Shown: in pieces, positions 59,375 through 63,366 of the stretch
Numbering within the stretch: the first letter of the stretch is position 1
Layout of the letters: every line of letters starts with the position of its first letter
Source: Flavobacteriaceae bacterium
GTDB taxonomy: Bacteria > Bacteroidota > Bacteroidia > Flavobacteriales > Weeksellaceae
Length of the DNA: 64,000 nt
NCBI GenBank assembly: GCA_012522185.1
Contig: JAAYKY010000037.1
Coordinates: 1 to 64,000, forward strand
Direction: 5' to 3'
The notes under the pieces: model-generated
Told to the model about the DNA's origin: nothing
The model's database searches: none
What the model saw: the letters and a program-made list of their open reading frames with translations, nothing else
Program-made: the position numbers and the translations under genes

Positions 59375-60565
59375 TTATTTTTTAAGGATAATTGATTGGG
59401 ATTTTTTATCATAAACATAGTTTACAATATTTCCGTTAATTATTAAGTTGAGAGCTTCATCTATAACATTTAAGGGCGCTATGAACCATTCTCTTGGTGT
59501 GTAGCGCTCATTTTCTGGATTATATAAATCTATATCCAAGCATACCTCAGCAAAAAATCGATGTATAAGCTTTTCAAAATTATGAGTTGTCATATTGAAA
59601 CACTTATACGAAGCAATTAATTCTACTTCGTCAAATAAATAAGTTGCTTCTTTTTGGGCATTTTTTATTCTCTCATTTACTGGTTTTGTTGAAAACCCTA
59701 TTTTATATAAGTTATTGATATTACTGATTAGCGGATTTTTGGACTTCGATTTTAAGATATAAATCCATCCTGACTCTCGTTCTTCCATTACAACCCCTGA
59801 ATTCTTTATAAGTTCTTTCTCAATGCCTTCATCTGAATTCGTTACAAGTTTACCGTTTTTTAAAATGGCTTTGCCCAAAGACCTGAAAAGCATATTTGAT
59901 ATAGTACCATTTTCAAAGATTGTAATGGTACGACCATCAATTCTTACTCCATCTTTCTCCTTAACAACCTCTTCTGCCTTTGAAACTTCTAAATAGCATA
60001 ACATTCCATCAACTAAATAAAAATTCCCTTCTTTTAAGTTTTTCTCTGCATTTTTAAATTCTGCAAACTTTCTTTTTCCTTCTTTCAGTTCTTTATGAAC
60101 CTTTTTAAACATTAATTCATATTTCTGAAAGTCTTTCTCGGATAGTGATTTGCGTTGAGCTATATAATCTGCTTTTTCGCGGGTAGTGTTTTCAGAAACA
60201 TATTTGAAATCAAAAATAGAAGTATCTCCTTCAGAATCCAAAATTGATAACACATCATCATTGAGTACATCGTCTATGGAAGTATATTTAGTTTTATATT
60301 CTCCAAGTAAATTGTAACGGTCAAATGGTTTTAGAACGCCTTTTCTTTCCTCATTGGATTTGAATTCATTTAGTCGGGAAAAAAGTGTGTATTCCGACAT
60401 AGAATTTTTAGACGGTTCTCGCTGATATTTCTCAAAAAACTCATTAATTTCTTCAAAAGAGTCAATTAATCTATCCTCATCTGATTTAAGTGTAGATTGG
60501 TTTTTTTCGGAGTCCAATAATCCAAAATCATCATTTTCAAATATTTCATCTAAACTCTTAGGCAT
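59375..60565 (-). CDS. GIY-YIG nuclease-like protein (T5orf172-type domain)
   Basis: The 396-residue protein has an unrecognised acidic N-terminal half and a C-terminal GIY-YIG-like domain (about 266-370). GWIYILKSKSKNP takes the place of the GIY strand, NLYKIGFSTKPVNERIKNAQKE is the YIG/Arg region, and FEKLIHRFFAEV and PREWFIAP supply the family His and Trp-Phe patches. This pattern fits T5orf172 domains. Residues 32-70 carry a motif that also occurs at the end of the helicase. The start overlaps the helicase gene by 8 bases. A DNA-cutting partner of the helicase in defence is likely but not shown. The gene is AT-rich compared with rimK next door. Confidence 0.8.
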   Translation of the reverse strand: MPKSLDEIFENDDFGLLDSEKNQSTLKSDEDRLIDSFEEINEFFEKYQREPSKNSMSEYTLFSRLNEFKSNEERKGVLKPFDRYNLLGEYKTKYTSIDDVLNDDVLSILDSEGDTSIFDFKYVSENTTREKADYIAQRKSLSEKDFQKYELMFKKVHKELKEGKRKFAEFKNAEKNLKEGNFYLVDGMLCYLEVSKAEEVVKEKDGVRIDGRTITIFENGTISNMLFRSLGKAILKNGKLVTNSDEGIEKELIKNSGVVMEERESGWIYILKSKSKNPLISNINNLYKIGFSTKPVNERIKNAQKEATYLFDEVELIASYKCFNMTTHNFEKLIHRFFAEVCLDIDLYNPENERYTPREWFIAPLNVIDEALNLIINGNIVNYVYDKKSQSIILKK

Positions 60566-62552
60566 TTTGATCTCTTTTCCTTTTTGCTTCTTGTAAAAAT
60601 AATAAAGCTTGTGCTAATCTTTGTTCTTTTGGTTCATGAGAATTTATATTAGGCTTTGTTCCTGTACTTTTAACCCAATCATTTATTTTTGGCCAAAGAA
60701 TAATGGCTTCTTCTTCGGTCATTTCAATTTTAGTAATATTTATTGCATCCTGAATAGACTTTAAAGTAGTCGTTGTAACATTCTTAGAAAGAATCTCAAA
60801 AGCTTTTTGAAAAGGGTTAATAGTGTCAATTAAATCGATGTTAATGTCATCTATATTAACAAAACTTCCTGCCATTTTTATAAACTTTTTAGAGCCATGC
60901 TCTTCAACTTCTCCATTCTTGATTACAGAATCCACTACTACATATTGTCTCACCGCTTCTACTTCATCATCAGTTAAATCGGGATAGACCTCACGGATGA
61001 TTTTTGGAATTAAAACTGTATTGATTACTTCGGGTTCCAAATTTCCTGGCATAGCTTTTATCATTGTATCGTCTTGTAAAATCCTTGCCTTTAAATCATT
61101 TAAGTCACTCTCAATTATATCTTTTGCCCTTTGGGATGTTGCTTTTTTAAATCCTCTTATTTTTATAGTATTCTCTCCGTCTTCATCACTATCTAAATCA
61201 TCATCATCATCCATTGGTTTAAACTTAAAATTCGGAGCTAATACTTGTTCCATTAATAAGGAAGCCGTTATTGCTTTCAGCATATTATTTACAGCAATTG
61301 TAACATCATCTTCCACGGCATCAGGTTGCGCAATTAGGTTGGTAAATTGAGCGTGTTTTTTATTATCGCTGTCTCTTGTAGCTCTTCCAATTATTTGAAT
61401 GATTTCCGTTAGCGAACTTCTATAGCCAATGGTCAAAGCATGTTGGCAATAAGGCCAATCGAAGCCTTCCTTGGCCATTCCGAGTGCAATAATGATATCT
61501 ATGTCCTCGGGAGATTTAACGCCTCTTAAATACGCTACAATCTTGTCTCTGTCTCGGGGATTGTCATTAACTAAATCAGCAATTTTTAATATTTTTCCTG
61601 ACCTTTTGCTTTTTACAAAACAAACCCCTGTTTCTGTGTCTTGGTATTCAAACTCTCCCAAGCAGTCCATTATATGACTTACTTCTTCCAACTTTTCTTT
61701 GGAAGACTCTGCCGAATTTACATTGGGAATATGGATGATGGTTTTTAGGTTTTCATCAAGGATTTCTTCGAGTGCTGACATTCCACGTTCCTCATCAAAT
61801 TTGTAATATCTACCTCTGTAAAAATGATAACCTATCCCCAAGGATTTCAAATATTCATAGCCGTTTAATTGGTCATAATAATTATAGGTGACTTTTATAA
61901 ATTTAGCTTCGTCTTCAGGAAGCAAAACAGGAATGCTGTCGCCCCGAAAATAGGAGCCTGTCATAGCTACCAAATGGGCAGAGCTTTTCTCCATGATGTT
62001 TCTAATCACATTGCCCAAAATATTTGCTCCATCAGCTGAAACATGGTGGAACTCATCAATTGCAACCAAACAATCATTTAAGTCGGTAGGACTAATTCCT
62101 TCAAAAGCAAATCTCAAAGTTGCATGAGTACATATTAGAATTTTTTCATCGGTTTTTAAAAACTCTTTAAAAGATTTGACTTTAGAAACTTCATTTCCAA
62201 TTGTACATAAATTATATCTCGGGTTTATATTCCAATCTTCAAAAAAGCCATATTTCTTTAATTCTGTTGGTGCAAATGAATTTCCAATTGAACGTTCAGG
62301 AACTGCTACAATCACTTTTTTAATCCCTTGATTTTTCAACTTATCCAAGGCAATAAACATCAAGGCTCTGGATTTACCTGAAGCAGGTGGCGCTTTTAAT
62401 AATAAATATTTAGCTGATCTTGCTTCAAAAGCTTTGGCTTGCATTTCACGCATCCCTAATTCGTTGGTAGATTTACTTTTTCCTGTTTGAGCATAAGTAA
62501 CATTGACCAGATTTATGGGTTTTTTGTATTCTGAATTATTTTCGTTTTCCAT
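60558..62552 (-). CDS. superfamily 2 DEAD/DEAH-box helicase
   Basis: The 664-residue protein has Walker A APPASGKSRALMF (Lys60), a THATLRFAF motif, the DEFH box (Asp166-His169, LVAIDEFHHV), motif III VAMTGSYFRG and motif VI QIIGRATRD (386-393). KEGFDWPYCQHAL is the conserved patch before motif VI. An Asp/Glu-rich linker (DDDDDLDSDEDGE, about 445-458) precedes a helical C-terminal part. It resembles the helicases of restriction- and defence-type operons. It is co-transcribed with the GIY-YIG gene, which it overlaps by 8 bases. Upstream is a repeat-filled spacer. Confidence 0.88.
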   Translation of the reverse strand: MENENNSEYKKPINLVNVTYAQTGKSKSTNELGMREMQAKAFEARSAKYLLLKAPPASGKSRALMFIALDKLKNQGIKKVIVAVPERSIGNSFAPTELKKYGFFEDWNINPRYNLCTIGNEVSKVKSFKEFLKTDEKILICTHATLRFAFEGISPTDLNDCLVAIDEFHHVSADGANILGNVIRNIMEKSSAHLVAMTGSYFRGDSIPVLLPEDEAKFIKVTYNYYDQLNGYEYLKSLGIGYHFYRGRYYKFDEERGMSALEEILDENLKTIIHIPNVNSAESSKEKLEEVSHIMDCLGEFEYQDTETGVCFVKSKRSGKILKIADLVNDNPRDRDKIVAYLRGVKSPEDIDIIIALGMAKEGFDWPYCQHALTIGYRSSLTEIIQIIGRATRDSDNKKHAQFTNLIAQPDAVEDDVTIAVNNMLKAITASLLMEQVLAPNFKFKPMDDDDDLDSDEDGENTIKIRGFKKATSQRAKDIIESDLNDLKARILQDDTMIKAMPGNLEPEVINTVLIPKIIREVYPDLTDDEVEAVRQYVVVDSVIKNGEVEEHGSKKFIKMAGSFVNIDDINIDLIDTINPFQKAFEILSKNVTTTTLKSIQDAINITKIEMTEEEAIILWPKINDWVKSTGTKPNINSHEPKEQRLAQALLFLQEAKRKRDQNA

Positions 62553-62937
62553 TTTATTTTGGTTAAGCTTAAATTATAAGTTTTAGTATTCTAATTCAGT
62601 TTATATATAGAATTAGTTAATCTTAATACCTCTATAGGGTGGATTATATAGGAGTATATCTAAAGATTCGTCTAAATTCCGTCTAAACATGTCTAAATTA
62701 TTTTTAACTATATGTTTTTAGACATAGATATATTCTTCATTTAGAATGCCAACAATATTTTATTCGTCTAAAAACACGTCTAACCACGTCTAATTATTTT
62801 CAGGTAATATCCAACCTTATCAACATTTACTATTTGTCCTGACCTTCTTAATATTTGTAAATTGTTTTTTATTTTATTTTTCCAAACCTTGTCTAAAATT
62901 ATTTTATTAGGAGTATTTTACACAATGAATTGGATTA
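62553..62937. other. AT-rich spacer upstream of the helicase operon
   Basis: No gene is visible. The spacer separates the Doc gene stop from the helicase start on the same strand. It contains the GTCTAA iteron-like array described separately, and otherwise AT-rich sequence with no clear TAnnTTTG element near the helicase ATG. Confidence 0.65.
62657..62897 (+). repeat. iteron-like NGTCTAA array with 10-12 base phasing
   Basis: CGTCTAAA or close variants start at 62657 (TATCTAAA), 62669, 62680 and 62690, then at 62765, 62777 and 62787, and once more at 62890. An inverted copy (TTTAGACA) is at 62717-62724. Steps within clusters are 12, 11, 10 and 12, 10 bases, about one helical turn. The two main triplets repeat with a 96-97 base offset. 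No protein frame explains the pattern. Confidence 0.8.
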
Positions 62938-63366
62938 CTACATTAAAGCAATAGCGACTTTAAATCTCAACTCTTCAGAAAACTCTGCTTTATACAGTAT
63001 TTCGCATATAATTTCATGTAATAATTCTTTGTCAATTTTGTTATCTGCTACATATAATGCAACATTCTCCATTTCTTGAATATATTTTGTTACAATAAAG
63101 TCAGCTCCATTTATTTCAAGAAAATAAGCAGACAAACTTATTGAAGATCTTTTATTTCCATCATTAAAGGCATGATTTTTATTAATTGAAAAAAACAGGT
63201 GACATAACTTATCTTCAAGGTTTGGATAATACAAATCATTCTGAATATGTTCTAAAACACTTTCTAGTAAACCTTGATTTAATATGCCTTTTCTTCCTCC
63301 CGAATGTTCGATTATATAATTCTGAACTTCAAGTGCGTGTACCACGTCAAAATACTTGAACTCCAT
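62938..63366 (-). CDS. doc: Doc-type Fic-fold toxin
   Basis: This 142-residue protein has the Fic-family motif HAFNDGNKRS at 65-74 (His65, Asp69, Asn71, Lys72, Arg73), close to the Doc form H-x-F-x-D-x-N-K-R. An N-terminal GGRKGILNQGLLESVLEH patch is also typical of death-on-curing toxins. Doc phosphorylates elongation factor Tu and is normally neutralised by a short Phd antitoxin. No Phd-size gene is present. Instead a much larger unrecognised gene ends 2 bases upstream and is its probable operon partner. Confidence 0.87.
   Translation of the reverse strand: MEFKYFDVVHALEVQNYIIEHSGGRKGILNQGLLESVLEHIQNDLYYPNLEDKLCHLFFSINKNHAFNDGNKRSSISLSAYFLEINGADFIVTKYIQEMENVALYVADNKIDKELLHEIICEILYKAEFSEELRFKVAIALM

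Follow-up and report, generated by a model that had tools for sequence, protein, structure and literature searches.

One-turn direct repeats in a DnmA-YeeB-YeeC-type operon are probably the orphaned operators of a lost AlbA_2-family regulator

C proteins, which belong to type II restriction systems, have short operators and are small HTH proteins rather than AlbA_2 proteins; the WYL-domain regulators of the CapW/BrxR type have inverted-repeat operators. Operon-encoded control of restriction systems is already known: C proteins delay restriction relative to methylation (e.g. PMC3874152), and CapW/BrxR-type regulators are encoded beside diverse defence systems (PMC9122601, PMC9122589). Direct repeats one helical turn apart form the Apl sites of phage 186 (PMC7498355), and BldC multimerises cooperatively when it binds direct repeats (PMC5859096). 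The DnmA-YeeB-YeeC cluster, with an MmeI-like methyltransferase, a helicase and a T5orf172/GIY-YIG protein, is inactive in Bacillus subtilis and protective in Vibrio crassostreae, according to the available text of PMC9973331, where no regulator or operator array is described for it.

The window (the whole 64-kb stretch of DNA analysed here) and the adjoining part of its contig carry, in minus-strand order, an MmeI-family methyltransferase, PDC-M59A, Fic/Doc, an array of short repeats, a DEAD/ResIII helicase and a T5orf172 protein (Table 1). By their Pfam domains, these genes are a DnmA-YeeB-YeeC restriction-type operon, with methyltransferase, SF2 helicase and T5orf172 protein on the same strand and in the same order; restriction or anti-phage activity is predicted. 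Unlike the cluster in the available text of PMC9973331, the operon has a slot with exchangeable genes and an array. No small HTH controller gene of the type II C-protein kind was found between methyltransferase and helicase.

Table 1 Genes, repeats and candidate regulatory features at the array, in minus-strand order
Feature	Position	Strand	Remark
MmeI-type methyltransferase	contig 64584-67271	-	five MmeI domains
RhuM-like protein, PDC-M59A (PADLOC), 357 aa	63369..64000 in window; contig 63369-64442	-	start beyond window
Fic/Doc protein, PDC-M59B (PADLOC)	62938..63366	-	current slot occupant
C-terminal winged-helix remnant (recognition helix + wing) of AlbA_2 regulator, stop-to-stop	62783..62917	-	profile E = 3.1e-5
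Putative operator cluster B	62766..62793	-	GTCTAA at 62766, 62778, 62788; 96-97 bp from cluster A
Candidate Bacteroidota-type promoter TTG-N19-TATCTATG	62723..62752	-	between clusters A and B
Inverted copy (TTAGAC on +)	62718..62723	+	between clusters A and B
Putative operator cluster A (helicase-proximal)	62658..62696	-	GTCTAA at 62670, 62681, 62691; degenerate ATCTAA at 62658
YeeB-like DEAD/ResIII helicase	60558..62552	-	first gene presumably under array control
YeeC-like T5orf172 (GIY-YIG) protein	59375..60565	-	

The original prediction had listed eight direct copies and one inverted copy of NGTCTAA in this intergenic region. Seven exact direct copies of GTCTAA on the plus strand and the single inverted copy were recovered, while the eighth direct copy proved degenerate. 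The seventh exact copy, at 62891, probably does not serve as an operator; it falls within the gene remnant described below and encodes Leu-Asp there. Recounting reproduced the predicted geometry, with spacings of 11 and 10 bp in one cluster and 12 and 10 bp in the other, and offsets of 96, 97 and 97 bp between the two triplets. On the operon strand, cluster A reads TTTAGAC. GTCTAA by itself occurred about as often as by chance in the window (28 observed vs 23.9 expected), but it was extremely clustered: the 385-bp intergenic region held seven same-strand copies, and no dinucleotide shuffle among 20,000 had more than three. Pairs at 9-13 bp numbered four, a value reached in none of the 20,000 shuffles, and there was no such pair elsewhere in the 64 kb. 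The array is also the sole occurrence of TTTAGAC-N2-8-TTTAGAC in the whole 2.55 Mb genome assembly. A search of Rfam gave no match.

The Bacteroidota promoter consensus is TAnnTTTG, and the candidate TATCTATG element between the clusters has one mismatch to it. A near-consensus Bacteroidota promoter may tentatively be placed there; the pattern was absent between the clusters in most other TTTAGAC loci checked. Two-cluster layouts similar to that of the window were seen in L171, L184 and L028.

Relatives of the helicase were collected from 296 genomes of the family and, in a species-wide genome collection, as its 80 best loci. What lies between methyltransferase and helicase varies: this slot may be empty or filled by Fic, HigBA-like, RhuM/Doc, AlbA_2 regulator or other genes. 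One-turn TTTAGAC repeats were present in only 7 of the 90 homologous loci, so the slot, rather than the helicase, is where the array belongs. Helicase relatives up to 84% identical mostly lacked it. Of the seven loci, three (L136, L142, L171) hold an AlbA_2 gene between methyltransferase and helicase; L132 is cut upstream, and L140, L028 and the window have no AlbA_2 gene. A weaker array in L029 fell below the threshold used for this count. In L028, L029 and L140, which have TTTAGAC arrays and no AlbA_2 gene, a profile search found no C-terminal remnant. The original prediction had counted an absence of phased repeats from homologous operons against itself, and most homologues do lack them, in our interpretation because the array goes with a regulator that can be exchanged, and not with the helicase. 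Across the 296 family genomes, tandem TTTAGAC occurred at 69 places, mostly as scattered singles. Among the tandem places that were fetched, the window alone had a dense cluster, and one place (G262) was later found to lie behind an AlbA_2 regulator.

The regulator in the slot of L136 contains SLFN_AlbA_2 and HATPase_c_4 domains. The C-terminus of its AlphaFold model consists of three helices and a beta-hairpin, predicting a winged helix with a pLDDT of about 90; the model is of moderate confidence elsewhere (mean pLDDT 69). Its best structural match was 3LMM (DIP2311), one of the Schlafen AlbA_2/HATPase_c_4 proteins (COG2865), with the same domains as the presumed regulator; 3LMM is annotated as uncharacterised, and no operator is described for it in the open-access literature searched. 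More generally, we found no description of AlbA_2, COG2865 or HATPase_c_4 regulators with operators in open-access full-text literature.

In the helicase operons of L136, L171 and L142, TTTAGAC arrays come immediately after intact AlbA_2 regulators. The order is the same in L197 and L198, and in L184 and L192 regulator and array stand ahead of other genes; the L192 place was recovered independently by the DNA pattern alone. In total, TTTAGAC arrays followed AlbA_2/HATPase_c_4 genes with a winged helix in six loci of one C-terminal class and in one more distant locus. Relatives of the regulator from the 296 family genomes and 395 genomes of the phylum often carried arrays directly behind the gene, with different motifs: TGTTAGAACTT about ten times (L183), TTAAGAGAAG many times (L201), TTAGAAGAGA (L200), TTTAAACAC (L185), TTTAGTCGCG (L211) and TTTAGAC (L184, L197, L198). 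We propose direct repeats at 10-12 bp directly behind the regulator gene as the mark of this class; they were found in L136, L171, L197 and others, and in the window behind the remnant only.

Within 180 bp behind the stop codons of 44 non-redundant regulators, 260 hexamer repeats at 10-12 bp were counted in 44 windows, compared to 20 in 85 control windows. This is about 25-fold more direct repeats at ~11 bp than in the controls. As the controls were placed further downstream and often in coding sequence, intergenic composition could give part of the contrast. Composition alone would not yield the peak at 10-12 bp, where spacings of 10, 11 and 12 bp gave 62, 73 and 125 repeats behind regulators and 3, 4 and 13 in the 85 controls. 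Further peaks behind regulators appeared at 20-24 bp. Some AlbA_2 regulators (549-aa class, L131, L134) had no array, and no regulator relative was found on viral contigs. The genes that follow regulator and array include an HSDR_N protein and a DNA methylase (weak match) and, by eye only, PglZ-like and RNase R-like genes. In several genomes (L185-L190), regulator and array stand directly ahead of a gene that looks like RNase R, which is not a defence gene.

At the level of sequence, the array motif tracked the C-terminal domain of the regulator. Array similarity correlated with C-terminal identity (Mantel p = 4e-4), with a modest effect once the protein body was taken into account (partial Mantel p = 0.0016, partial rho 0.21). 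With leave-one-out C-terminal profiles, the six members of the TTTAGAC class occupied ranks 1-6 of 58 regulators, a result to be read with the proviso that the class was chosen by its arrays, for which leaving one out corrects only in part. The next 13 regulators had no phased TTTAGAC, and the one further array, of L192 with the motif TTTAGACAAAC, lay outside the class at rank 20 of 58.

A trace of such a regulator is present in the window. The minus strand between Doc and the array can be translated as NTPNKIILDKVWKNKIKNNLQILRRSGQIVNVDKVGYYLKIIRRG, ending at a stop codon. Among slot proteins its best match was the C-terminus of the L136 regulator, followed by weaker matches to those of L171 and L142, both of which have TTTAGAC arrays, amid other matches at chance level. 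When a profile of six such C-termini was built with the window left out, the remnant ranked first among all six-frame segments of the 64 kb (Table 1; next E = 0.17), over a short match of about 25 residues. The 45-aa remnant alone retrieved nothing useful from Pfam or PDB. In L193/L194, the order is intact regulator, TTAGGAAAG-type array, fragment like the L192 C-terminus, TTTAGACAAAC array; to judge from the sequences, a replaced regulator has left a scar of this kind there too. An intact AlbA_2/HATPase_c_4 gene is absent from the window, and the genome has no homologue at E <= 1e-20. Its only other AlbA_2 gene (G000:C19:41835; L227 1486-3148) is frameshifted into two overlapping frames; its class has no TTTAGAC arrays.

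We estimate a probability of roughly three in four that the array is the orphaned operator array of a lost AlbA_2/HATPase_c_4 (COG2865-like) regulator with a C-terminal winged helix, whose slot has been refilled by RhuM/Doc. It is very probable that the repeats served as docking sites for a DNA-binding regulator of this restriction-type phage-defence operon and that this regulator has been lost. The original prediction of an operator for the defence operon is thereby supported, with a different presumed binder: neither Doc nor the helicase/nuclease but the lost regulator. AlbA_2 regulators fill the slot between methyltransferase and restriction genes in some DnmA-YeeB-YeeC operons, and elsewhere lie just upstream of restriction genes. 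Their subunits may load side by side along one DNA face, with one subunit to each helical turn; BldC and Apl offer a model for such action, although these proteins are unrelated to the presumed regulator. The two loaded clusters, about 97 bp or nine turns apart, would flank the promoter of the helicase and nuclease genes in a promoter-sized gap. Bound there, the regulator would restrain helicase and nuclease relative to expression of the methyltransferase, a control resembling that by C proteins and, in being encoded beside defence genes, that by CapW/BrxR-type regulators, which are of a different protein family. In the window, the regulator gene would then have been lost, leaving its winged-helix end and its operators beside RhuM/Doc. 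Since the regulator is gone from this genome, the operon is predicted to be released from AlbA_2 control, or to be under another.

It is unlikely that the repeats are operators of the present neighbours, the RhuM-like protein and Doc, or of some other host regulator currently controlling the helicase genes. Both neighbours adjoin the array, the RhuM-like protein may by eye have an N-terminal HTH, and the TTTAGAC arrays of L028, L029 and L140 stand beside other slot genes. However, phased TTTAGAC is absent where RhuM/Doc pairs fill this slot in L137, L156 and L157, TTTAGAC is missing from close Fic relatives of L028, and in the window's operon it does not occur between the RhuM and methyltransferase genes. 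A role as replication origin or as transfer site, both also raised in the original prediction, or as integration site of a mobile element is very improbable even though one-turn direct repeats look like iterons and the slot is a hotspot of gene exchange. Arrays of the same class, including equivalent ones with other motifs, lie behind AlbA_2 regulators in chromosomal settings ahead of several different genes, restriction genes included, and no replication initiator or relaxase was recognised in the general annotation of the genes around the array. Hardly credible at all is recognition of the repeats by the helicase/nuclease, again an earlier proposal, or by the MmeI-type methyltransferase: the array adjoins these genes, yet most homologous helicase operons do without it, and TTTAGAC arrays also occur behind regulators ahead of other genes (L184, L192).

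Beyond this operon, it seems fairly probable that AlbA_2/HATPase_c_4 regulators and their ~11-bp direct-repeat arrays are exchangeable cassettes controlling many bacterial restriction and defence operons, that motif and winged helix co-evolve, and that scars of C-terminal fragment and array record past regulators. The scars suggest that defence operons swap regulators. The regulator-array cassette is undescribed in the open-access literature searched. It would give a large uncharacterised family related to the animal Schlafens a testable DNA target and a role, as repressor of restriction genes, and pairs of winged helix and operator form a natural set from which to read out a possible recognition code.

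Several further features of the homologous loci were noted. The helicases of L028-L031, L036 and L037 have about 145 extra N-terminal residues, ASCH-like by eye, which the window helicase does not have. In L174, 528 bp upstream of the helicase and between methyltransferase and helicase, there is a near-identical direct repeat of more than 100 bases with GTCCC(T/A)ACGGGAC palindromes. In the operon slot of L167, 80 bp upstream of the helicase, three tandem TTGCGACAAAC units at 11 bp lie behind the gene of a Fic protein for which an HTH is predicted. As binders of the array in the window, RhuM/Doc were rejected because the same pair occurs elsewhere without it, and Fic was rejected because its close orthologues have their own TTTGTTTACAA-like upstream repeats and no TTTAGAC. 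Fic genes with a C-terminal winged helix (L070-L078, L091-L093) are flanked by arrays of their own, TTTGTTTACAA-like upstream and TGCACAA or ATGTTACAAAAATTGTAACAT with a period of ~40 bp downstream, which suggests a second family of regulator-array pairs.
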